Positions 13,326 to 26,447 of a DNA stretch of 64,000 bases are shown here, piece by piece (position 1 is the stretch's first letter; the number at the start of each line of letters is the position of its first letter). Source of the DNA: Alphaproteobacteria bacterium (GTDB taxonomy: Bacteria > Pseudomonadota > Alphaproteobacteria > Rhizobiales > Rhizobiaceae); assembly GCA_024280375.1 (NCBI GenBank), contig JAJRQF010000114.1:1-64000 (forward strand), in the 5' to 3' direction. A program made the translations under genes and the position numbers. A model generated the notes under the pieces. The model ran no database searches, was not told where the DNA came from, and saw nothing but the letters and a program-made list of their open reading frames with translations.

Positions 13326-15227
13326 GTGCCTGAGCGTGTAATCATAGGGCGGAAAGACGATCTGGTGGCGGGTACATTGCACATTGCCCGGTCGGAGGCT
13401 TTTGGCGGGATTGAGCAGCTTTATTTGCTCGATGGTGATTGTGTTTCCGGAACCGTATCGAGCATAATCGCATTAACCGATGATGATCTGCCGCCATCTG
13501 GTTCGAGCAAACAGGATGTTCATTTGCGGGTGTTTCATTTCAATGATCTGCACAATCATCTGAGCGACCTTTCTGGCAAAACAAAGGGAACGCACCGGTT
13601 TTCGCAAATGGTGAAACGGGTTTCGGATGCGCGAAAAGCGGCAAGCGAGAATGAGGCGGTGTTGTTTCTTTCCATCGGTGATGATCATACGGGTACGGGC
13701 TTTGATGAGCTGCTTGGCTGGAATGAGGCGCAGTTTATTGCATCCCCCGCGTACCGGGTCTATTCCGCCGCCGGGGTTGATTGTTCAGTGCTTGGCAATC
13801 ACGAGTTTGATCGGGGATCTTTGTTACTGGCCAAGGGGATACGGCAAGATTCTCAGTTTCCGATTCTAAGTGCCAATGTGCATTCTTCCAGCCATCTGGA
13901 GCCGGGGCGGGACTATTTTCCGGCCGCTATCGCGGTTGTTAAAGGCCTGCGCATTGGCATGATTGGCCTTACCACAAAGGTGGAAACCAAGGTCGGACAA
14001 CCGGGCGACCCCGGCCTTGCTGTTGCCAGCCCGGTGGATGTGCTTAACAATCTTATGCCGGCACTCGCCCCGTTGGTCGATGTGGTATTTATTCTTTCCC
14101 ATTGTGGCTATGGCGACGGGGAACATAAAAGCGGCAAGGCCTCTGCGGTGCGTGATATTGGCGAGGCCGATTTTGCCCTCGCCAAGGCGGCACGTGAAAT
14201 CAGCAAAAAGCCCACATTTATTCTGGGTGCTCATACCCACACAGTCATTAATGAAAACTCGCTTGATGAGATCAACATTATTGCTGGTGTGCCGGTGTTG
14301 CAGGCAGGCGGCAAGGGGCGGTTTATTGGCGAGATCAATCTTGCATTTGATGCACAGCGAGACTGCAAAATTGGCACGGTCTGCCTGCATCCGATTGTGG
14401 AAAAAGGCGCTTCCAATGGGCAAAGCGATGATGATTTTGATGCAGTCTTTGAAAAGGCTCACGTCACGCCTTTAATCAGCCGGATTGAGGACAGTCTAAC
14501 CCGCGAAATCGCAACGGTTTCGACCAATGCGCTTTCTTATGGGGCCGCTGAACTTGATCGTTATTCAGGTGAATCCGCGCTGTTGAATTTCATGTGCGAT
14601 GCGATTTACGCTCGTATGGTTGAGGCGCAATATGGGGTGGATTTTTGCCTGCTAAACGGTGCAACAGCGCTTGCGGGCATAGAACAGGGTAGCCTCACAC
14701 AAGGTGAATGGTTCGATGTCATGCCCTATGCGGATCAGATCTATCTCGTCACCATGAGCGGAGCGGAGCTTGGGGCGATTTTGCAAAACAATGCAAAGCG
14801 AATTTTGCGACCGGAAGAAATTGCCGATACGGATTATGCGGGTTTTTTGCCGCGCGGATTTACCCACACATCACGGCATATTCGTTATTCTATTGATCTG
14901 GGTAATTCTGCGGCAGCCGCAAGAGCCGTCTCAATTGAGATAAACGGGCAGTCGATTGCCTCACTTCAATCTGCCAAATTCAAGGTCGCCATGCCAACCT
15001 ATCTGGCGCTTGGGGCCTTTGGCGAGCGTTGGAATGGTGAAACTATAAGCGGTGGCGTGCCGGGAAATCTGGCCGGATTTGATATGCGTCAATTGCCTGC
15101 GACCAATACCGGGCAAATATACCGAAATCAGATTTCAGCATTTATCCTGGCAGCCAAGCATCTGGAAGACCGCGATTATGTCGATGGTCGATTGAAACTG
15201 ATAAAAGCTAAAAGCGAGGCTGCGTGA
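13326..15227 (+). CDS. Bifunctional metallophosphatase/5'-nucleotidase family protein
   Basis: A 633-residue UshA-type enzyme. The metallophosphatase core shows F-N-D-L-H-N-H, G-D-D-H, L-G-N-H-E-F-D-R-G, S-H-C-G and G-A-H-T-H-T. A C-terminal 5'-nucleotidase domain (about 390-590) includes L-L-N-G-A-T-A-L-A. An extra ~65-residue N-terminal segment precedes the catalytic domain and no signal peptide is visible, so it is predicted to be cytoplasmic, unlike UshA. The start is GTG 13326 with AAAGGA upstream. Second unusual point: the canonical G-D in the metal site is followed by D-H-T-G-T-G. Within this operon it probably removes phosphate from a nucleotide-like intermediate. Confidence 0.85.
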   Translation: MPERVIIGRKDDLVAGTLHIARSEAFGGIEQLYLLDGDCVSGTVSSIIALTDDDLPPSGSSKQDVHLRVFHFNDLHNHLSDLSGKTKGTHRFSQMVKRVSDARKAASENEAVLFLSIGDDHTGTGFDELLGWNEAQFIASPAYRVYSAAGVDCSVLGNHEFDRGSLLLAKGIRQDSQFPILSANVHSSSHLEPGRDYFPAAIAVVKGLRIGMIGLTTKVETKVGQPGDPGLAVASPVDVLNNLMPALAPLVDVVFILSHCGYGDGEHKSGKASAVRDIGEADFALAKAAREISKKPTFILGAHTHTVINENSLDEINIIAGVPVLQAGGKGRFIGEINLAFDAQRDCKIGTVCLHPIVEKGASNGQSDDDFDAVFEKAHVTPLISRIEDSLTREIATVSTNALSYGAAELDRYSGESALLNFMCDAIYARMVEAQYGVDFCLLNGATALAGIEQGSLTQGEWFDVMPYADQIYLVTMSGAELGAILQNNAKRILRPEEIADTDYAGFLPRGFTHTSRHIRYSIDLGNSAAAARAVSIEINGQSIASLQSAKFKVAMPTYLALGAFGERWNGETISGGVPGNLAGFDMRQLPATNTGQIYRNQISAFILAAKHLEDRDYVDGRLKLIKAKSEAA

Positions 15228-15229
15228 TC

Positions 15230-16036
15230 ATGGGCACTTTTGAGACAGACAGGTTCTATTGGGCCAATCATACAAGCCAGCAATTGGCTGAACTGGCGAA
15301 ACAAGACCCGGTTGCCGTGCTGCCTATCGGGGCGATTGAGCAACATGGGCCTCATTTACCGCTTTCTGTTGATACCGACATTAATCGCGGGTTGGTTGCC
15401 AAAACTGCTGAATTGCTGGTTGGCGCTTCAGTACCGGTGTTGTTTTTGCCGACCATGCCAATTGGCAAAAGCACCGAGCATCTGGATTTTCCGGGATCGC
15501 TTTCATTTTCGACCCAAACACTGATTGCCATGTGGATGGAGATTGGCGAATGCGTTGCGACTGCCGGTATTCGTCGGCTGGTATTTTTCAACAGCCACGG
15601 CGGGCAGGTGGCGCCGATGGATATTGTGGCGCGGGATTTGCGGGTGAAGCATGATCTTTTGACATTTTCCTGCAACTGGTTTGGCCTTGGCCTGCCGGAA
15701 GGGCTGATTTCGGAACATGAAAACAAGCACGGCATTCACGCCGGAGAGCTGGAAACATCAATGATGCTGCATTTGCACGAAAGCAAATGCGATATGAGCA
15801 AGGCGCAGAATTTCAAATCGCATATTGAAGCGCTTAATGCAGATACAAAGCATCTGGGCTTGGGGCCGGGTGGAAAGCTGGGCTGGAAAGTCGGCGATCT
15901 AAACCCTAATGGGGCCTGCGGTGATGCGACAAAGGCGACGCGCGAAACCGGCAAGGCGGCAATTGATTTTGTTGCCGAGCGGTTTGTTGAAATGCTGCAT
16001 GAGGTTCATGCCTATGATCTAGATCGACGGGTGTAG
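15230..16036 (+). CDS. Creatininase family amidohydrolase
   Basis: A 268-residue member of the creatininase / Fe-Zn formamide hydrolase family. Metal and catalytic motifs: P-I-G-A-I-E-Q-H-G-P-H-L-P-L near residue 34, V-D-T-D-I-N, F-N-S-H-G-G, and G-I-H-A-G-E-L-E-T-S. Family members hydrolyse cyclic amides (creatinine) or N-formamides (ArfB, MftE relatives). A GTG at 15224 overlaps the nucleotidase stop; ATG 15230 is also possible and is used here. Translational coupling with the gene before it is likely. Confidence 0.87.
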   Translation: MGTFETDRFYWANHTSQQLAELAKQDPVAVLPIGAIEQHGPHLPLSVDTDINRGLVAKTAELLVGASVPVLFLPTMPIGKSTEHLDFPGSLSFSTQTLIAMWMEIGECVATAGIRRLVFFNSHGGQVAPMDIVARDLRVKHDLLTFSCNWFGLGLPEGLISEHENKHGIHAGELETSMMLHLHESKCDMSKAQNFKSHIEALNADTKHLGLGPGGKLGWKVGDLNPNGACGDATKATRETGKAAIDFVAERFVEMLHEVHAYDLDRRV

Positions 16037-16039
16037 CAA

Positions 16040-17335
16040 TTGCGCGATCATTGGCTTCCATCTCCCGGTAACAATCAGCATTATGTGCTTGGTAATGTGC
16101 GCATTCCGCCTGCGCTATCGTCACTTGAACCGGGCAGTAATGGTTGGTGCGAGGCCGATATTCTGATTGAAAATGGTGAAATTGCGAGTGTTGCACCGGT
16201 TGGGAATATGCCCGCTACCACTGTTGAATATATCGATGCGGATAAGGGTATTCTCTATTCCGGGCTTGTCGATTGTCACACTCATCTGGACAAGGCCCAT
16301 GTGACGGCATTCACCGATTTTCCCCCTTGCAATTTGCTTGATGCGATTGCCGCAATGGCGGAAAACAAGAAAAGCTGGACAGCGGAAAGCCTGTCTGCGC
16401 GGGTTGAGTTTTCGCTAAAATCTGCCTTTGCCAGTGGCGTGCGGGCGATGCGCAGCCATGTGGACTTTAATCCCGATACCTCTGATTTTATCTGGGGGGT
16501 GATGAGCGAATTTATCCAGTCTTATACGGGCAGGGTCGATCTGCAATTATCACCGCTTGCCAATATCGTTCATTTTGATGAGGCGGAATTTTGCAAACGC
16601 ATTTATGAAGTGGCGGCAAAACAGGGTGTTTTGGGTCTGTTTATCTACGATCAAAGCGATTTGCAAAACCGCTTAACGCCGATTTTCGAACATGCCAACG
16701 CGCAAGGCTGGGATATTGATTTGCATGTGGATGAGGGGCTGGATGCTTCGCTCGATGGGCTGAATGCGGTAGCAAAGGTTACACTTGCGACCAAATTTAC
16801 CGACAAGGTTTTGTGCGGTCATTGTGTAGCGCTTAATTCCTATGATGAGGAACGGCGCAAACGGGTTATCGACCGTTCGCTTGAGGCTGGCTTGCATTTC
16901 GTATCGCTGCCGGTGACCAATCTTTATCTGCAGGGGCGGGAAAGCAACGGTCTGCCGCAGCTGCGCGGCATGACCCCGGTTGGCCATTTAAGCGATAAGG
17001 GAGCGGTCGTCTCGTTTGGAGCAGATAATGTTCGCGACGGGTTTTGCGCCTTTGGTGAATTTGATCCGATGGCGGTTTTAAATCTCGGGGCGCAGATTGG
17101 CCATCTGGACGAGCCGGGGCGGGACTGGGCGGCACTTGTGACCAAAAATCCGGCCCATTCGATGGGGCTTAAATGGCAGGGTGAGATTACAAAAGATGCG
17201 CCGGCTGATCTGGTGTTGTTTTCTGCCCGCTCAAGCGGCGAATTGAGCGCGCGTGGCGAAACTCCGCGGGTTGTCATCAGAAACGGTTGCTGGCTGGATG
17301 AAAAGCTGCCGGATTATCGTGAATTGAATGGGTGA
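16040..17335 (+). CDS. Cytosine-deaminase-like amidohydrolase
   Basis: A 431-residue metal-dependent hydrolase of the amidohydrolase superfamily. Metal motif D-C-H-T-H-L-D-K near residue 78, then M-R-S-H-V-D, D-L-H-V-D-E-G and the distal H of C-G-H-C-V-A-L. Catalytic Asp is in S-F-G-A-D-N-V-R-D-G. These match the CodA/atrazine-chlorohydrolase-like group that deaminates or hydrolyses cytosine-like rings. The start is TTG 16040, three bases after the preceding stop. The ring-acting class agrees with the NMT1/THI5 importer and the creatininase-family enzyme upstream. Confidence 0.85.
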   Translation: MRDHWLPSPGNNQHYVLGNVRIPPALSSLEPGSNGWCEADILIENGEIASVAPVGNMPATTVEYIDADKGILYSGLVDCHTHLDKAHVTAFTDFPPCNLLDAIAAMAENKKSWTAESLSARVEFSLKSAFASGVRAMRSHVDFNPDTSDFIWGVMSEFIQSYTGRVDLQLSPLANIVHFDEAEFCKRIYEVAAKQGVLGLFIYDQSDLQNRLTPIFEHANAQGWDIDLHVDEGLDASLDGLNAVAKVTLATKFTDKVLCGHCVALNSYDEERRKRVIDRSLEAGLHFVSLPVTNLYLQGRESNGLPQLRGMTPVGHLSDKGAVVSFGADNVRDGFCAFGEFDPMAVLNLGAQIGHLDEPGRDWAALVTKNPAHSMGLKWQGEITKDAPADLVLFSARSSGELSARGETPRVVIRNGCWLDEKLPDYRELNG

Positions 17336-17347
17336 GGAGCATTAAAA

Positions 17348-18721
17348 ATGGCTGTAAAGGAAATTAACTGGGATGGGTTTCAGGGCGATATTGAAGGGAT
17401 CAAAATCATCGACAACCCGCAGCGGGTTAAGCTGAAATCCCGCGATTATTTTTGGTACAGCCCGATTCTCAACGAGATATTGAAAAAATCTCATGCCCAT
17501 ATGGTGGTGGTGCCTGCTAGCGAGGCAGAAGTTATCAAGGTCGCTGCTGCATGCGCCAAATGGAAAGTGCCGATGACCCTGCGCGGTGGTGGCACTGGCA
17601 ATTACGGGCAGGCGGTGCCCCTGGTTGGCGGTATCGTGCTGGACATCACCAAGGTCAACCAGATTAAAGAAATTGGCGATGGCTTTGTGCGGGTTGAGGC
17701 AGGCATGCTGATTGAAGATCTTGATATTGCGGTCCATAAACAAGGGCAGGAGCTATTGATGTGGCCCTCGACCCGTTCGCAGGCAACGATTGGCGGCTTT
17801 ATTGCCGGTGGTTCCGGCGGCATTGGATCTGTGCGCCACGGGGTGTTGCGCGATGATGGCAATGTTCGTTCGCTGCGCATTGTTACACTTGAGGAAGAGC
17901 CCAAAATCATCACGCTTGAAGGCGTTGATATTCAAAAGGCTCACCATGCCTATGGCACAAATGGGATTATTACCGAGCTTGAGCTGGCCTTGCAGCCAGC
18001 CGTAGACTGGCATCATGGCATTATATTATTCGATGATTATGGAGAAGGGGTGCGCTTTGGCGAAACGCTTTGTCGCGAAGATTATGATATTTATCTGATC
18101 TCGGTGGTTGATAAGAGGTTTTCACCCTTCTATCGCGATTTGAAGGATTATTTTCCGCCCGATAAGCATGCGGTTTTCGTCATGGTTGGGCCAAAGACGA
18201 TTGAGCCACTCAAAAAAGATGCCAAAGCCCATGGCGGTGAGGTCGCCTTAATGATCAATGAGGCAGATCTGAAATCTGCTGGTATCACGCCTGCTTATGA
18301 ATGTTCATGGAACCATACCACGCTGATGGCGCTGCAATCGGATCGTTCGTGGACCTATTTGCAGATTGCCTATCCGCAGCCCTATCAGGCTTCAATTGAT
18401 GAACAAATCATGGCGGAATTTGGCGACGAGCTTTATCTGCACCATGAATTTGCCCGCGAGCGTGGGGACTATCAATTGTTTGCCCTGCCGCTGGTGAAAT
18501 TCACCACTAAGGAACGGTTATATGAAATCTCTGGTCGGTTTGAGGAACTTGGTTGCGGGGTGTTCGATGCCCATGTTTACACCATTGCCGAGGGCGGAAT
18601 GAAGGTGATTGATCCGGTGCAAATGGCCTTTAAGGCCGAGGCCGATCCACATAATTTGATGAACCCCGGCAAGACCAGCCAGCAGGAAGCTGAGCAGGTT
18701 TTGGCTGAATATGGTGTTTGA
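17348..18721 (+). CDS. FAD-binding oxidoreductase (PCMH/GlcD type)
   Basis: A 457-residue flavoprotein with an N-terminal PCMH-type FAD domain: V-P-A-S-E-A-E-V-I-K-V, then P-M-T-L-R-G-G-G-T-G-N-Y-G-Q for the pyrophosphate and G-G-F-I-A-G-G-S-G-G-I-G. The C-terminal substrate domain ends N-L-M-N-P-G-K as in GlcD-like dehydrogenases. It probably oxidises a hydroxy acid or an aminoalcohol and passes electrons to the respiratory chain. It is the last gene of the operon; a composite intergenic repeat follows. Confidence 0.88.
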   Translation: MAVKEINWDGFQGDIEGIKIIDNPQRVKLKSRDYFWYSPILNEILKKSHAHMVVVPASEAEVIKVAAACAKWKVPMTLRGGGTGNYGQAVPLVGGIVLDITKVNQIKEIGDGFVRVEAGMLIEDLDIAVHKQGQELLMWPSTRSQATIGGFIAGGSGGIGSVRHGVLRDDGNVRSLRIVTLEEEPKIITLEGVDIQKAHHAYGTNGIITELELALQPAVDWHHGIILFDDYGEGVRFGETLCREDYDIYLISVVDKRFSPFYRDLKDYFPPDKHAVFVMVGPKTIEPLKKDAKAHGGEVALMINEADLKSAGITPAYECSWNHTTLMALQSDRSWTYLQIAYPQPYQASIDEQIMAEFGDELYLHHEFARERGDYQLFALPLVKFTTKERLYEISGRFEELGCGVFDAHVYTIAEGGMKVIDPVQMAFKAEADPHNLMNPGKTSQQEAEQVLAEYGV

Positions 18722-19016: not shown

Positions 19017-20756
19017 CTAAGCTACCCGGTCGCCTTTTTTAACCTTAACCGTGCGGTTGTCGACTGCCGGTAACATATGGGCAGGATCACGGGTGACCAC
19101 AACATCGACCACGGATGGGCGGGTTTTTTCTGCCATCGCTTCCTTTAGGGCCGCTGCTATATCGTTCGGGTCTTCCACCCGAATGCCGTGACAGCCAAAG
19201 CTCTCAGCAATTTTTGCATAGTTCATTTCGACCAGATCGCTGGATTGATAATTGCCTGCCCCATACATCAAATGTTGCAGGGCTTTCACATAGCCGGATG
19301 CCGCATTGTTGACGATGACAATAGTTAGGCCCAGCCCCATGCGTTTGGCTGTTTCCAATTCTCCCACCACCATGTTGAAGCCGCCATCGCCGGTAACGCC
19401 AATGACCGGGCGATCACCGCCGGCAATTTGTGCGCCCATGGAGCCGGGCAGGCCATAGCCGATTGAGGCAAAGCCACGGTCGGGCACAAAGCCGCGACCG
19501 GCGCGTTTTGTGTCAAATATCAACCCGCCCCAATGGGCCGCAAAGCCGCCATCGGCAATCAGCAAGCCGTCTTCGGGCAGGGTGTTGCTGATTTCATGCA
19601 TCAGCCGCGCCATATTGATGGGGCTTTCATTTGAATTCAGTCTTGCATCAACCGATTTGCGCCATTTTTCCATTTTGGCCGGGATTTCAGCAAGGTATTC
19701 CGCGCGCATGGATTTGATCGCGTCTGCATTCGGGGCCATCGCCTCTTTCAGATCAGCGATGGTTGCACGGGCATCGCCCCATAGTTTCAGCACAGCCGGG
19801 GTGGTGCGTTCAAATTCTTCGGCGACAATATCGACGTGGATAATAGTTTTGCCTTTTGGCGGAACCGTATAGCGTTTGGTAGCGATCTCGCCCAGTTTGC
19901 AACCAATCACCAGCAGGCAATCGGATTGCTCGATCAAGTCGTTGGCAATGCGGTCATAGCGGCCAAACAATCCGGCATTAAGCGGGTGACTGCAGGCAAT
20001 CGCGCCCTTGCCGGTCATGGTGTGGGCAACAGGAATGGAGCAGGTTTCGGCAAAATCCTGCAAAACTTCTGCCGCATCGGATAAATGAATACCGCCACCG
20101 GCCAAAATCAGCGGGTTTGCGGCTTTTGAAAGCATCTCAACCGCACTCGCCAAAGTTTCCGCATCCGGGCGGCAGCGAATGGCGGGTGAAATAGATGCAT
20201 CTGGTGTATCGGCGAAATCTTCCGGGTCAAAATCATAGGTGTCGTGGCTGATGTCTTCTGGAATATCCACAATCACCGGGCCGGGACGGCCACTTGTTGC
20301 AACGGCAAACGCGCGGCGGATGATTTCCGGTATCCGGGCAATCGATTCAACGCGGAGCAATTCCTTGCAGGCAGGGCGCAGCATTTCAACCTGCCGGGTT
20401 TCCTGGGTCATGTTTTTCCACGAGTGATCGCGGTGACTATCGGCGACAATTGCAACAATCGGAGTGCCCGCATTCAAAGCTTCCACAAGGCCGGTGAGCA
20501 GGTTGGTTGCGCCCGGTCCAAGGGTCGCATCAACCACACCAACGCGACCGGAAACCTTGGCATATGCATCGGCTGCAAACATGCCGCAACGCTCGTCATT
20601 GATCAGGTTGTGGTTCATGTTGAGCCGTCTGACCGCATCGTAAAACGGCAGCAGCTGAAATCCGCCCATGCCAAACATCGGGCCAACACCGCAGGCGCGA
20701 AGAGTTCGGGCGATGGCTTCACCACCGGTCATTGTGGTGTTTTTGTTGTCAGTCAT
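19017..20756 (-). CDS. Thiamine-pyrophosphate-dependent lyase (acetolactate-synthase-like)
   Basis: A 579-residue member of the acetolactate synthase/benzoylformate decarboxylase family. The catalytic Glu that activates TPP is E55 in N-D-E-R-C-G-M-F-A-A-D-A-Y-A-K. The central domain is present and the C-terminal TPP/Mg motif is G-D-G-G-F-N-M-V-V-G-E-L-E-T-A ... N-N. It probably carboligates or decarboxylates a 2-oxoacid. Start chosen at ATG 20756, with AGAGGG seven to nine bases upstream; the ATG at 20780 lacks a good SD. Third gene after the E1 alpha/beta pair on the same strand. Confidence 0.85.
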   Translation of the reverse strand: MTDNKNTTMTGGEAIARTLRACGVGPMFGMGGFQLLPFYDAVRRLNMNHNLINDERCGMFAADAYAKVSGRVGVVDATLGPGATNLLTGLVEALNAGTPIVAIVADSHRDHSWKNMTQETRQVEMLRPACKELLRVESIARIPEIIRRAFAVATSGRPGPVIVDIPEDISHDTYDFDPEDFADTPDASISPAIRCRPDAETLASAVEMLSKAANPLILAGGGIHLSDAAEVLQDFAETCSIPVAHTMTGKGAIACSHPLNAGLFGRYDRIANDLIEQSDCLLVIGCKLGEIATKRYTVPPKGKTIIHVDIVAEEFERTTPAVLKLWGDARATIADLKEAMAPNADAIKSMRAEYLAEIPAKMEKWRKSVDARLNSNESPINMARLMHEISNTLPEDGLLIADGGFAAHWGGLIFDTKRAGRGFVPDRGFASIGYGLPGSMGAQIAGGDRPVIGVTGDGGFNMVVGELETAKRMGLGLTIVIVNNAASGYVKALQHLMYGAGNYQSSDLVEMNYAKIAESFGCHGIRVEDPNDIAAALKEAMAEKTRPSVVDVVVTRDPAHMLPAVDNRTVKVKKGDRVA

Positions 20757-20812
20757 TTTGTGTAACCCTCTGTTCGTCATCTCATCACAGGACGGGATGA
20801 CGGTATGAATTA

Positions 20813-21784
20813 TTAGCCCATTGCCCGAACGGCTGCGGCGATATTATTGGCGGTCACGCGCACCTGATCTTCAAGCGGTGGTGAATATGATACCGGTGAA
20901 CGCGGTGCGCCGAGGCGTTTGATCGGCCCTTTCAGGGATGAAAACATTTCTTCGGCGACGCTTGCGACAATTTCCGCGCCAAAACCGGAAACACTTACCG
21001 CCTCGTGGGCGACCAGCAGGCGTCCGGTTTTTTCAACCGAGGCAAATACGGCCTCCTTGTCCCAGGGCCAAAGGGTGCGAAGGTCGATCACTTCGACTGA
21101 CGTTCCTTCACTTGCCAGAGTATCGGCTGCTTCCACGGCCACATGAACTGTTGCTGACCATGAAACAATGGTGATGTCGCTGCCTTCGCGTGCAATGCGC
21201 GCCTTGCCAAGCGGAATGGTGAAATCTTCCTCGTCGCTGACATTGCCCGTAAGTCCCCAAAGGTTTTTATGTTCCATGAAAACAACCGGGTCATCATTAC
21301 GAATGGAAGTTTTGAACAGGCCATAGGTGTCTTCCGGCGTGGAAGGGGCAACCACCACAAGGCCCGGAATATGGGTGTACCAGGATTCCAGCGATTGCGA
21401 ATGCTGGGCGGCGGATGAACGCCACATGCCGATCGGTTCGCGCACCACAAGCGGCACTTTTTTCTGCCCGCCAAACATAAATCTTGCTTTGGCTGCCTGA
21501 TTGACCAGCTCGTCAATGGCGCAAAGGGCAAAGTCTGAAAACCGCATTTCAACCACCGGTCTGGTGCCCATCATTGCAGCGCCCACGGCCCCGCCCATAA
21601 TGGCGGCTTCAGAAATTGGTGCATCAGAAATACGCTCTCGCCCAAACTCGTCTGCAAGGCCGATATATTGGCCAAAAACTCCGCCACGGCCAAGGTCTTC
21701 GCCAATCGCCCAGACCATTTCGTCGCGGCGCATTTCTTCGGCCAGCGCCCGCTTACCGGCTTCTAAATAGGTCATCTGGCTCAT
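20813..21784 (-). CDS. 2-oxoacid (acetoin/pyruvate-type) dehydrogenase E1 component, beta subunit
   Basis: A 323-residue transketolase-type pyrimidine-binding subunit. N-terminal M-T-Y-L-E-A-G-K-R-A-L-A-E-E-M, E-D-L-G-R-G-G-V-F-G-Q-Y, D-A-P-I-S-E-A-A-I-M-G and E-M-R-F-S-D-F, plus a C-terminal transketolase domain (L-R-T-L-W-P-W-D). It pairs with E1 alpha upstream, overlapping by four bases (ATGA). No E2 or E3 gene is in the window, so the acceptor of the activated aldehyde is unresolved. An acetoin- or branched-chain-type substrate is possible. Confidence 0.9.
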   Translation of the reverse strand: MSQMTYLEAGKRALAEEMRRDEMVWAIGEDLGRGGVFGQYIGLADEFGRERISDAPISEAAIMGGAVGAAMMGTRPVVEMRFSDFALCAIDELVNQAAKARFMFGGQKKVPLVVREPIGMWRSSAAQHSQSLESWYTHIPGLVVVAPSTPEDTYGLFKTSIRNDDPVVFMEHKNLWGLTGNVSDEEDFTIPLGKARIAREGSDITIVSWSATVHVAVEAADTLASEGTSVEVIDLRTLWPWDKEAVFASVEKTGRLLVAHEAVSVSGFGAEIVASVAEEMFSSLKGPIKRLGAPRSPVSYSPPLEDQVRVTANNIAAAVRAMG

Positions 21785-22788
21785 TGGTTTGCCCCCGTTG
21801 TGTCGAGGTCGCTATCCTGAACATCGCTAAAGGCTTCGCCAATATCCGGCCAGGGGGCATTCTTGGCCACCTCATAAGCCTGGCGGATTTCCTCCAGACA
21901 TTTATTGGCTTCATATTCGGGTACATCGTCTTCGATGCCGGTTTGTAAAATTGAATCAAGACAACGCTTTATCGGATCACCCTGCCATTTGGCATCAACC
22001 TCGGCGCTATCACGGTAGGCGGCCGGATCAGCCGCCGTATGGCCGGTTAAACGATAGGTTTTTGCCACCAGAAAACGCGGGCCGCCGCCAGCGCGAATGC
22101 CGTCGATTAATTCGCGCGCAACATCGTCAACCACTGCCACATCATTGCCGTCAATTTCGGTAGCAGGGATGCCAAGGCTTTCGGCCCGCGCTGCGGGGCC
22201 AGCACCCGATGTCATGGTTTTTGTGCGGGTGGTTGCGGCAAAGCCATTGTCTTCGCAGACAAACAAAATCGGCAAATCAAAAACGCCAGCCCAGTTTAGC
22301 CCTTCCAAAAACGGCCCGCGATTAATCGCGCCATCGCCAAAAATACAGCAAACAATCTGATTGCTTTTCTTCAGCTTGATTGCGTGCGCTGCACCGGCGG
22401 CAATGGTGATATTGGCACCGACAACGCCGTTTGAACCCAACATGCCAACGCGGAAATCGGCAATATGCATCGAACCGCCTTTGCCCTTGCAAATACCGCC
22501 TTGTTTGCCGAACAATTCGCACATCATCTCAACTGGCACGGCCCCTTTGACCATAGTGTGGCCGTGGCCGCGATGGGTGGAAAGCAATACATCATCGGTT
22601 TCAAGATTACCGCAAACGCCAACGGCTATGGCTTCCTGCCCGATTGACGGGTGGATTGCGCCCTTTACCAAACCTTCTTTTGAGGCGGCAATGGCGGTTT
22701 CCTCAAAGGCGCGAATGCGGCGCATTTGGGCATATTGTTGAATGAGCCTGTCGGTATCGACATTGCTTCTTGTGGTGTTTATTCGCAT
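21781..22788 (-). CDS. 2-oxoacid (acetoin/pyruvate-type) dehydrogenase E1 component, alpha subunit
   Basis: A 335-residue TPP-binding subunit. Seen: Y-A-Q-M-R-R-I-R-A-F-E-E near the N-terminus, S-T-H-R-G-H-G-H (phosphate-contact histidines), K-G-K-G-G-S-M-H and the TPP motif G-D-G-A-I-N-R-G-P-F-L-E-G-L-N-W-A ... E-D-N. It forms an alpha2beta2 E1 with the next gene. It is first in a minus-strand run E1 alpha, E1 beta, TPP lyase, and divergent from the duplicated unknown protein 131 bases away. Confidence 0.9.
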   Translation of the reverse strand: MRINTTRSNVDTDRLIQQYAQMRRIRAFEETAIAASKEGLVKGAIHPSIGQEAIAVGVCGNLETDDVLLSTHRGHGHTMVKGAVPVEMMCELFGKQGGICKGKGGSMHIADFRVGMLGSNGVVGANITIAAGAAHAIKLKKSNQIVCCIFGDGAINRGPFLEGLNWAGVFDLPILFVCEDNGFAATTRTKTMTSGAGPAARAESLGIPATEIDGNDVAVVDDVARELIDGIRAGGGPRFLVAKTYRLTGHTAADPAAYRDSAEVDAKWQGDPIKRCLDSILQTGIEDDVPEYEANKCLEEIRQAYEVAKNAPWPDIGEAFSDVQDSDLDTTGANQ

Positions 22789-22919
22789 GAATTATTCGCT
22801 ATTATAGGGATAAAAATCCGGTTTATGTTTTTATTTGCGTTTGAACAAGGTGCACCAATAGTATTGGGGGTTCAAGAGCTCAGGAATTGAATTTCCTGCT
22901 AAATCCATTTGTTTTGAGA

Positions 22920-23756
22920 ATGACGGGAAAATTGCAAGTGCCTGATGTTGAAAATGAAATTGCAATCATTAATAGCGCAACCAAACTTGACGACACCTGC
23001 CGTGGCAAAGTGCTTGTCTGTGGTTCGCATGGAGGGGAATATCCCGCATGGCTGGTGGCCCGCGCAGGGTGCCGGGCGGTGATTTTGAATGATGCGGGCA
23101 TTGGCAAGGATGAGGCGGGTATTGCATCGCTCGCCTATCTTGAAAAATGTGGCATGGCGGCTTGCTCAATTGATACGATGTCGGCCCGTATTGGTGATGC
23201 CAATGATATGTTTGCGCGCGGTATTATTTCTCGCGCTAATTCGCCAGCTGCTGCGCTCGGAGTAACAAGCGGACAAGCCTGCCGTGAGGCTGCGCATCTG
23301 CTTATAAAGGCCAAAGAAATGCAGATTGATCCGGGTAGCTATGAGGAAGCACGAATATTGCTCGCGGGCGAAAAGGGCGAGGTGGATGTGATGCTGATTG
23401 ATTCAGCCTCGCTGGTAAAACCAGAGGATAAAGGGCGCATTATCATCACCGGTTCGCATGGTGGCTTGGTTGGCGGTATGCCTGCAATGGCCCTGCAGGT
23501 GGATGGGTTAGCCGGAATTTTTCATGATGCGGGCGGTGGCGCGGATGGGGCCGGGCTAACCCGACTTGCAGCACTGGACCAACGCAATATTGCCGCTGCA
23601 ACGGTTGCTGCTGAAAGCGCACGCATTGGCGATGCCCGCTCGATTTATGATGATGGAATAATCTCCCATGTAAATGAAACCGCATCGCAGGCTGGCGGCC
23701 GGGCCGGGCAAAGCGTCGGTGAATTTGTTAAACGACTTCGAGAAAACTCAGCCTGA
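22920..23756 (+). CDS. Internally duplicated protein of unknown function (GSHGG repeats)
   Basis: A 278-residue protein I do not recognise. It consists of two homologous halves (about 13-135 and 150-275). Each has an I-N/D-S-A strand, G-K/R-x-x-x-x-G-S-H-G-G, N/H-D-A-G-x-G-x-D-x-A-G, S-A-R-I-G-D-A and G-I-I-S. The conserved Gly, His and Asp residues in both halves suggest ligand or metal sites related by pseudo-twofold symmetry. No signal peptide or membrane helix is seen. ATG 22920 begins just before the first repeat; TTG 22887 is an alternative. It is divergent from the E1 alpha gene, with a shared spacer, so a role in the same pathway is likely but unproven. Confidence 0.75.
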   Translation: MTGKLQVPDVENEIAIINSATKLDDTCRGKVLVCGSHGGEYPAWLVARAGCRAVILNDAGIGKDEAGIASLAYLEKCGMAACSIDTMSARIGDANDMFARGIISRANSPAAALGVTSGQACREAAHLLIKAKEMQIDPGSYEEARILLAGEKGEVDVMLIDSASLVKPEDKGRIIITGSHGGLVGGMPAMALQVDGLAGIFHDAGGGADGAGLTRLAALDQRNIAAATVAAESARIGDARSIYDDGIISHVNETASQAGGRAGQSVGEFVKRLRENSA

Positions 23757-24824: not shown

Positions 24825-25565
24825 ATGGGACGATTAAGCGGCAAAACCGCATTTGTAACAGCTGCCGGGCAGGGAATTGGCCGCGCCACTACTCTTGCTA
24901 TGGCAAATGAGGGGGCAAAAATTATTGCCACAGATCTGAATGAAGAGCTTTTGGCCGATCTTCCCGACCTATCTGAAAATATCGAGATTGCACAATTGGA
25001 TGCGCGCAATCCGAATGCTATTTCAGCCCTGGCTGAAAAGCTTGGAGCTGTGGATATTTTGTTCAATTGCGCCGGCTTTGTTCATCATGGAACGATATTG
25101 GATGCGAGCAATGATGAATGGGACATGGGCTTTGATTTGAATGTTAAATCGATGTTCCATACCATCCGGGCTTTTTTGCCGGGTATGCTGGAAAAGGGTG
25201 CAGGGTCGATTGTCAATATGTCGTCGGCTGCATCCAGCATCAAGGGCGTTCAAAACCGGTTTATCTATGCAACTACAAAGGCGGCCGTTATCGGGCTGAC
25301 AAAAGCGGTCGCGGCAGATTACATCACTACCGGTGTGCGCTGTAACGCGATTTGCCCGGGCACCATTCAATCGCCCTCGCTGGAAGATCGTATCAAGGCG
25401 CAGGGTGATTATGATACGGCCCGTGCGGCCTTTATTGCACGCCAGCCAATGGGCCGACTTGGTACAGCGGAAGAAATTGCCGCATTGGCGATTTATCTGG
25501 CAAGCGATGAATCCGCTTTCACCAGCGGGCAAACTCATATTATCGACGGTGGCTGGTCACTGTAA
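24825..25565 (+). CDS. SDR dehydrogenase, L-2-keto-3-deoxyfuconate dehydrogenase / BDH2-like
   Basis: A 246-residue classical SDR. T-A-A-G-Q-G-I-G is the cofactor loop, D-L-N-E the NAD-selecting acid (D at the end of beta-2), N-C-A-G, and catalytic S-S ... Y-A-T-T-K. C-terminal I-D-G-G-W-S-L. Long stretches resemble mammalian BDH2 (F-V-H-H-G-T, P-S-L-x-x-R-I) as I recall it, and bacterial L-2-keto-3-deoxyfuconate 4-dehydrogenases. The FAH-family hydrolase starts 39 bases later; that pairing favours the non-phosphorylating sugar-acid pathway over ketone-body metabolism. Confidence 0.85.
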   Translation: MGRLSGKTAFVTAAGQGIGRATTLAMANEGAKIIATDLNEELLADLPDLSENIEIAQLDARNPNAISALAEKLGAVDILFNCAGFVHHGTILDASNDEWDMGFDLNVKSMFHTIRAFLPGMLEKGAGSIVNMSSAASSIKGVQNRFIYATTKAAVIGLTKAVAADYITTGVRCNAICPGTIQSPSLEDRIKAQGDYDTARAAFIARQPMGRLGTAEEIAALAIYLASDESAFTSGQTHIIDGGWSL

Positions 25566-25604
25566 TTGTTCTAATAAGTTGAATCATTTAAAGAGGATAA
25601 GATC

Positions 25605-26447
25605 ATGAAATTGTTGCGTTTTGGCGATACGGGCAGCGAGAAGCCCGGCCTTTTGGACGGTGATGGAAATATCCGTGACCTTTCAGCCCATATTGATGAC
25701 CTTGCGGGTGAAAACATCTCACCAGATGCGTTGGCTAAGCTTGGCGCAATTGATGTGAAATCACTGCCGTTAGTTGAAGGCTCGCCGCGTTTAGGGCCCT
25801 GTGTCGCCGGCACCGGAAAGTTAATGTGTATTGGATTGAACTATTCTGATCATGCGGCGGAAACCGGTATGGAGGTTCCGCCGGAGCCAATTTTGTTCAT
25901 GAAGGCAAGCTCAGCCATTGTTGGGCCGAATGATATTGTTGAAATCCCGCGCGGTTCAGTTGCGACCGATTGGGAAGTTGAACTTGGGGTTATCATCGGT
26001 AAAACGGCCAAATATGTCAGCGAAGAAGATGCGCTTGATTATGTGGCTGGATATTGTGTTTGCAATGATCTCTCAGAGCGTGATTTTCAAGCCAAGCGTT
26101 CAGGCCAATGGACCAAGGGCAAATCCTGCGATACGTTTGGCCCGACCGGCCCCTATCTGGTGACAAAAGATGAAGTGCCGGAACCGAACAATCTTGCCAT
26201 GTGGTGCGATGTGAACGGCCATCGCTATCAGGATGGTTCCACCAAAACCATGGTCTATCAAGTAGCCTTTCTGGTCTCGTACCTCAGCCAATTGATGTCA
26301 CTGCATCCAGGCGACATAATTTCTACCGGTACACCGCCGGGCGTTGGTATGGGGCAAAAACCGCCGGTATATCTGAAACCCGGTGATGTGATGGAATTGG
26401 GCATTGAAGGCCTTGGCTCCCAGCGGCAAGACGTCGTGCAGGGGTGA
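25605..26447 (+). CDS. Fumarylacetoacetate hydrolase family protein (2,4-diketo-3-deoxy-L-fuconate hydrolase-like)
   Basis: A 280-residue FAH-fold hydrolase. Divalent-metal ligands occur in W-E-V-E-L-G-V-I-I-G and N-D-L-S-E-R-D-F-Q; the central catalytic stretch is C-I-G-L-N-Y-S-D-H-A-A-E, and the end has S-T-G-T-P-P-G-V-G. The N-terminal 70-residue cap (K-L-L-R-F-G-D-T-G) is the form seen in ureidoglycolate-lyase-like/FucF-type hydrolases. It would cleave the diketo acid made by the SDR upstream. A GAGGATAAG RBS precedes the ATG. Confidence 0.85.
   Translation: MKLLRFGDTGSEKPGLLDGDGNIRDLSAHIDDLAGENISPDALAKLGAIDVKSLPLVEGSPRLGPCVAGTGKLMCIGLNYSDHAAETGMEVPPEPILFMKASSAIVGPNDIVEIPRGSVATDWEVELGVIIGKTAKYVSEEDALDYVAGYCVCNDLSERDFQAKRSGQWTKGKSCDTFGPTGPYLVTKDEVPEPNNLAMWCDVNGHRYQDGSTKTMVYQVAFLVSYLSQLMSLHPGDIISTGTPPGVGMGQKPPVYLKPGDVMELGIEGLGSQRQDVVQG

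Follow-up and report, generated by a model that had tools for sequence, protein, structure and literature searches.

A two-domain protein with a probable DUF1805-like fold, and its association with E1-alpha/beta and acetolactate-synthase-like genes that have no nearby E2

The gene that we label T, which encodes a two-domain protein of 278 amino acids at positions 22920-23756 on the forward strand of the window (the whole stretch of DNA that was analysed, 64,000 nucleotides), is distributed across genomes almost identically to two thiamine enzymes, and so very likely carries out a hitherto undescribed step of the breakdown pathway that they share. The best overall explanation, to which we give slightly less than an even chance, is that T would be a duplicated DUF1805-like enzyme of the catabolic pathway of this ThDP-enzyme module, acting by proton transfer on a hydroxy-oxo-acid. 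Members of the T family, which have no curated model and stand as ‘hypothetical protein’ in annotated plasmids, are now tied to a four-gene module (T, E1-alpha, E1-beta and the acetolactate-synthase-like enzyme) present in roughly one sampled class genome in twelve. The module suggests a complete catabolic pathway not described before, as well as E1 working, unusually, without E2, and T offers a concrete way into the DUF1805 fold. Neither the tandem family nor its motifs nor its link to the module turned up in the literature searched, which covers few subscription papers, and a search on the T/E1/ThDP gene cluster found no paper.

A duplicated domain beside ThDP-enzyme genes

T is a real gene, with an open frame running from ATG to TGA over exactly 22920-23756 (+); an alternative TTG start at 22887 would add 11 residues. 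A sequence-only reading of the window had described a protein built from two repeats that keep the motifs GSHGG, DAGxGxDxAG, SARIGDA and GIIS at equivalent spacing, and all of these pairs are present and equally spaced (listed below, with the GIIS pair at residues 101-104 and 246-249). The same reading placed T divergent from 2-oxoacid E1 genes, as is seen for the E1-alpha gene about 130 bases away, and this divergent E1 neighbourhood is the most telling feature of the T locus. On the other side, the end of a convergent gene for an EamA-like transporter (identified by eye) overlaps the T stop by nine bases.

22920..23756 (+): T, two-domain protein, 278 aa; open frame; relatives in 31/289 class genomes
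22962..23327 (+): domain copy 1, residues 15-136; half alignment; AlphaFold model, mean pLDDT 95.1
23022..23036 (+): GSHGG copy 1, residues 35-39; Ser36 46/46, His37 42/46
23091..23120 (+): DAGxGxDxAG copy 1, residues 58-67; Asp58 41/46
23181..23201 (+): SARIGDA copy 1, residues 88-94; Arg90 41/46
23379..23744 (+): domain copy 2, residues 154-275; half alignment; modelled alone, mean pLDDT 95.4
23451..23465 (+): GSHGG copy 2, residues 178-182; His180 in 42/43 two-domain rows
23526..23555 (+): DAGxGxDxAG copy 2, residues 203-212; Asp203 43/43
23616..23636 (+): SARIGDA copy 2, residues 233-239; Arg235 38/43
21781..22788 (-): E1-alpha-like ThDP enzyme subunit; NCBIfam TIGR03182 292.7 bits, under the cut-off of 393.85; near T in 20/43 T loci
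20813..21784 (-): E1-beta-like ThDP enzyme subunit; NF006667 338.3 bits, above the cut-off of 321; near T in 20/43 loci; co-occurs with T
19017..20780 (-): acetolactate-synthase-like ThDP enzyme; NF004772 394.8 bits, under the cut-off of 673, and none of the NCBIfam models shown reaches its cut-off; near T in 20/43 loci; co-occurs with T

The duplication of a domain that had been proposed from the motifs is borne out by the comparison of the two halves, by the predicted structure and by single-domain relatives. Local alignment of one half with the other (BLOSUM62) scores 177 over about 115 columns, against a mean of 32.5 (s.d. 6.0) and a maximum of 63 for 2000 shuffles of one half, which rules out a chance or low-complexity repeat. 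When 27 proteins are aligned as 54 half-proteins the same residues are retained in both halves, and the model of T consists of two near-identical folds, one per half. Free-standing single-domain relatives of 130 and 134 aa were found in the phylum draw (L085 and L086) and one of 131 aa in the class (L064), which shows that the domain is a unit in its own right, duplicated or fused in T; the L085 gene sits beside an SDR-like gene.

Conservation was assessed in an alignment of 46 proteins, 43 of them two-domain and 3 single-domain. In copy 1, Ser36 is found in all 46 and Asn107 in 45, followed by His37 (42/46), Asp58 and Arg90 (41/46 each) and Asp93 (37/46), and Gly62, Gly67 and Gly101 are present throughout (46/46). 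Copy 2, counted over the 43 two-domain proteins, keeps Asp203 in every one, His180 in 42, Arg235 in 38 and Asp238 in 37. Both copies thus keep their polar, putatively catalytic residues, as had been anticipated, in the half-protein alignment as well as in this one. A divergent two-domain clade (L062, L063, L065, L070 and L071; FastTree support 0.995) has Tyr in place of His37 in three of its five members (L065, L070 and L071) and a changed DAG or RIGD motif in several, from which it follows that the motif residues are not essential to every family member. L072 has Asn at the His37 position. Two loci of the divergent clade, L070 (with CoA and thiolase genes) and L071, lie in other catabolic settings.

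Most of the T relatives in the 31 class genomes are full length, with 40-60% identity, and across the phylum draw they are sparse (6/398). They are also carried on 13 plasmid records, 12 of which are annotated ‘hypothetical protein’ under the match and one of which is unannotated, with haloarchaea, Rhodococcus, Aminobacter, Rhizobium, Ponticoccus and Methylovirgula as hosts. A phage origin was considered, and T has no match among 50,697 phage records.

Predicted fold and relation to DUF1805

Strictly, no family can be assigned to T, as the sequence-only reading had it: no Pfam model is reached at cut-off, the sole NCBIfam match up to E 10 is to NF005012 (11.9 bits, where the cut-off is 116), and searches of solved structures with T, with a two-domain profile and with a half profile returned only unrelated proteins at E > 0.02. 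A clear match to a characterised family was looked for and not found. To this a DUF1805-like fold can be added. AlphaFold gives a confident model both for whole T (pLDDT 95.1, pTM 0.91) and for domain 2 alone (pLDDT 95.4, pTM 0.90), and Foldseek, the check that had been suggested alongside it, returns zero matches below E 0.001 for either, a negative that holds for the families represented in the structure lists. In each half, helices alternate with four or five strands. The motifs come after strands 31-37, 53-57, 80-84 and 102-106 in half 1 and after strands 174-180, 198-202, 225-229 and 247-251 in half 2, in the segments VLVCGSH, AVILNDAG, SARIGD (in the loop after AACSI) and IISRAN. For a parallel sheet of the kind found in Rossmann-like folds, the motif residues would gather on one sheet edge and line one pocket per half.

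VIA-align ranks 1qw2 (TA1206) first both for the whole model (Z 8.2 with 95 aligned at rmsd 3.1; the next row is at 5.7) and for domain 2 by itself (Z 7.7 with 80 aligned at rmsd 3.1; the next row is at 4.7); Foldseek lists the same structure at E 0.86 and 0.58, with probability 0.63 and 0.72, for the whole protein and domain 2. When a bona fide DUF1805 protein is compared with solved chains, 1qw2 is its sole match at E up to 1 (E 2.4e-7). The Pfam family DUF1805 (PF08827) in turn matches T at 22.4 bits (E 1.5e-4), in the C-terminal half of the T domain. Weak as the Pfam match is, it and the top fold row are two independent routes to DUF1805, which makes them persuasive together, and the halves of T are likely to have a DUF1805-like fold, although a Z near 8 can reflect nothing more than a common arrangement. 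The fold of T is thus probably one that is already known.

The same evidence, together with the recovery of PF08827 at E up to 1 in 22/27 relatives (best 7.4e-8), could be taken to mean that T belongs to DUF1805 proper (YunC/TA1206) and has the function of that family, a reading that we consider improbable. The match to T stays under the gathering score of 29.5 (isolated halves give 17.4 bits for half 1 and none reported for half 2), and PF00817 (IMS) is found in nearly as many relatives (21/27) through the same short helical stretch. DUF1805 sequences are without GSHGG, DAGxG and SARIGDA, whereas their own GYIMCG-LD (GYxMCG...L) motif and long conserved tail motif are missing from T, and the DUF1805 proteins seen here are single-domain and about 100 residues long. 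Profile comparison of the T family with four DUF1805 sequences aligned 27 columns at a probability of 5.6%, which is weak. Because the Pfam match is under cut-off, IMS recurs in 21/27 relatives, this profile comparison is weak and Foldseek is not significant, we call T ‘DUF1805-like’ and do not file it as a member of that family. No known function was found for DUF1805, and a literature search on YunC/TA1206/1QW2/PF08827 gave mostly unrelated papers among the matches listed.

PF00817 itself matches T at 21.3 bits over a 54-residue stretch, under its gathering score of 23.2; identity with a Y-family polymerase was rejected, as the rows share only a short strand-helix stretch. The Ser-His of GSHGG, which comes after a strand, also invites comparison with the phosphohistidine motif of the mobile domain of PEP-utilising enzymes, in which case its histidine would be phosphorylated. 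A rifampin phosphotransferase segment does align with domain 2 (Z 4.1, 83 aligned), but this Z lies within the background of the domain 2 list, no Pfam match to the PEP-utilising mobile domain appears up to E 10, and the Oia-type kinase described below adjoins T in some loci only, all of which leaves a phosphohistidine role very improbable.

Co-occurrence with ThDP-enzyme genes and the lack of a nearby E2

Orthologues of the acetolactate-synthase-like ThDP enzyme and of E1-beta were searched for in the 289 class genomes with the window's own proteins as queries (E up to 1e-160 and 1e-100, respectively), giving 26 genomes with the former and 24 with the latter. As a test of membership of the ThDP module in the same genomes, T accompanies both partners in 24/24 E1-beta genomes and is present in 24/26 ThDP genomes, the two exceptions (G053 and G087) being without E1-beta too. 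Co-occurrence with T gives Fisher p values of 1.2e-26 and 3.8e-29, uncorrected for shared descent, and the 24 genomes span 16 family codes. T lies more than 12 kb from the ThDP gene, or on another contig, in 5/24 of these genomes, and the same holds for the E1-beta gene (5/24), so the co-occurrence is not a matter of linkage alone. We conclude with high confidence that T belongs to the pathway of the ThDP-enzyme module. The remaining seven of the 31 T genomes (G011, G066, G081, G196, G200, G280 and G287) are without either partner orthologue. One ThDP orthologue match, at G277:C92:34097-35827, contains a single in-frame TAG.

Gene neighbourhoods were surveyed at 43 T loci (L032-L074), several of them from one genus and some of them second copies. 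The window's E1-alpha, E1-beta and acetolactate-synthase-like genes each have homologues at 20 of the 43, and under stricter homologue grouping the counts become 13, 20 and 20. The T and ThDP genes lie on the same strand with a gap of -4 to 18 bases at 6 of the 20 loci measured, which are those with both genes, and genes for the binding protein and the large permease of a TRAP transporter each lie near T in 8/43. At L055, L060 and L066, two E1-alpha/beta pairs flank the acetolactate-synthase-like gene next to T.

Near-perfect co-occurrence and such short gaps between genes would also be expected if T, rather than being an enzyme itself, served the acetolactate-synthase-like ThDP enzyme or the orphan E1-alpha/beta as a subunit, an activator or an assembly factor. 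We regard this as unlikely: the seven genomes named above have T without either ThDP orthologue, T stands with OiaK/OiaX-like genes at four loci (below) and in its single-domain form beside an SDR-like gene (L085), and the wide conserved polar set at the strand ends goes beyond the needs of a structural partner.

The E1 of the module is itself unusual in its surroundings. In the 24 genomes the E2 catalytic domain (PF00198) was found at 63 places, none of them on the same contig within 100 kb of the T or E1-beta gene (judged by eye, with several contigs shorter than that distance), and a dedicated E2 for the module's E1 was rejected accordingly. Because no PF00198 lies near, the E1-alpha/beta pair may be a stand-alone ThDP enzyme or may borrow its E2 from elsewhere. 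The likeness to 2-oxoacid dehydrogenase complexes extends to the E1-beta beside T, which passes the cut-off of a PDH E1-beta subfamily; the T loci differ from them in having no nearby E2 and, instead, an acetolactate-synthase-like enzyme.

A second genomic setting and the proposed role of T

On plasmids of Haloterrigena, Haloarcula and Natronosalvus, T is followed directly by RuBisCO-like and four-carbon acid sugar kinase genes and preceded by SDR and VOC genes, with a TRAP transporter also at the T locus of the Haloterrigena and Haloarcula plasmids. G462, from the window's own family, has a run of genes for a sugar ABC transporter, a lactonase-like protein, T, a dehydrogenase, a kinase and a RuBisCO-like protein (transporter, lactonase and dehydrogenase named by eye). 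In an NCBIfam scan of the kinase and RuBisCO-like partners from Haloarcula, Haloterrigena and G462, the kinases best match OiaK (441-536 bits) and the RuBisCO-like proteins OiaX (454-516 bits); the cut-offs are 700, so these partners may act on another substrate. The OiaK/OiaX-like pairs at L067, L073 and L087 (haloarchaea and one alphaproteobacterium) are far below the equivalog cut-offs and perhaps act on a different branched or four-carbon acid. Genes resembling the OiaK/OiaX pathway of 3-oxo-isoapionate (NCBIfam NF042436 and NF042437) adjoin T at three haloarchaeal loci and in G462, but T is not among the named enzymes of that pathway, having no NCBIfam match. In the FastTree tree, many of whose inner nodes are weak, the haloarchaeal T and the G462 T fall in separate parts, which suggests that the association with OiaK/OiaX-like genes arose more than once. 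OiaX as a general partner of T in the class was rejected, as OiaX-like genes occur in 1/289 class genomes (G036), which does not bear T. Among the matches listed by a literature search on apionate and Oia terms, no paper deals with this pathway.

3-oxo-isoapionate, a 2-hydroxy-3-oxo acid, is the dihydroxy analogue of 2-acetolactate, and acetolactate-synthase-like enzymes make or break 2-hydroxy-3-oxo acids. Acetolactate-type and Oia substrates may thus have a chemical skeleton in common, and an isomerase, tautomerase or lyase acting on a 2-hydroxy-3-oxo acid would fit both the ThDP and the Oia settings of T.

We read T as a putative soluble metabolic enzyme, which we think somewhat likely, formed by two copies of a DUF1805-like alpha/beta domain. 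It would share one catabolic pathway with the E2-less E1-alpha/beta and the acetolactate-synthase-like ThDP enzyme, the substrate of which may be a small carboxylic acid imported, in several genomes, by the TRAP transporter. The conserved Ser-His, Asn-Asp, Arg, Asp and Ser/Asn of each copy are predicted to sit at the C-terminal ends of consecutive beta strands and to line one pocket, where Arg, Ser and Asn could hold the carboxylate and His and Asp could serve as acid and base; duplication would then give either a pocket in each half or a single pocket to which both halves contribute a base. The most likely chemistry would be a proton transfer of isomerase, tautomerase or lyase type on a hydroxy-oxo-acid, a substrate type to which we point only tentatively, its class being read from the neighbour genes alone. 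This explanation of T as an enzyme of the ThDP pathway is weakened by the 7/31 T genomes that are without both partners, by the altered motifs of the divergent clade, and by the Foldseek and profile-comparison results.

Two pocket-like copies in which Pfam recognises no cofactor-binding motif would also suit a non-catalytic protein that binds the pathway substrate as a sensor or carrier. We find this doubtful, since the 278 residues hold no DNA-binding or signalling domain (by Pfam and in the model) and T loci often have an IclR-like or LysR regulator of their own (by eye or annotation). Returning to the enzymatic reading, its furthest extension, which is speculative, is that T could be the first member to be recognised of a new enzyme family, pseudo-symmetric and built on the DUF1805-like fold. 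It would catalyse a step not yet described, an isomerisation or one linked to retro-carboligation, on hydroxy-oxo sugar acids of the acetolactate type. The step would then belong to a new catabolic pathway relying on an E1-alpha/beta without E2 and on an acetolactate-synthase-like lyase; in haloarchaea and some bacteria the step itself would be unchanged, but an OiaK/OiaX-like kinase and a RuBisCO-like decarboxylase would stand in for these two.

Two further groups of genes lie on either side of the module in the window. At 15224-18721 (+), creatininase-like, cytosine-deaminase-like and FAD-oxidase-like genes stand in a row that ends just before the convergent ThDP gene, all of them under the NCBIfam cut-offs shown. 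At 24825-26447, an SDR gene precedes one that is close to 2,4-didehydro-3-deoxy-L-rhamnonate hydrolase (422 bits, under the cut-off of 500), and this is likely to be a separate sugar-acid pathway.
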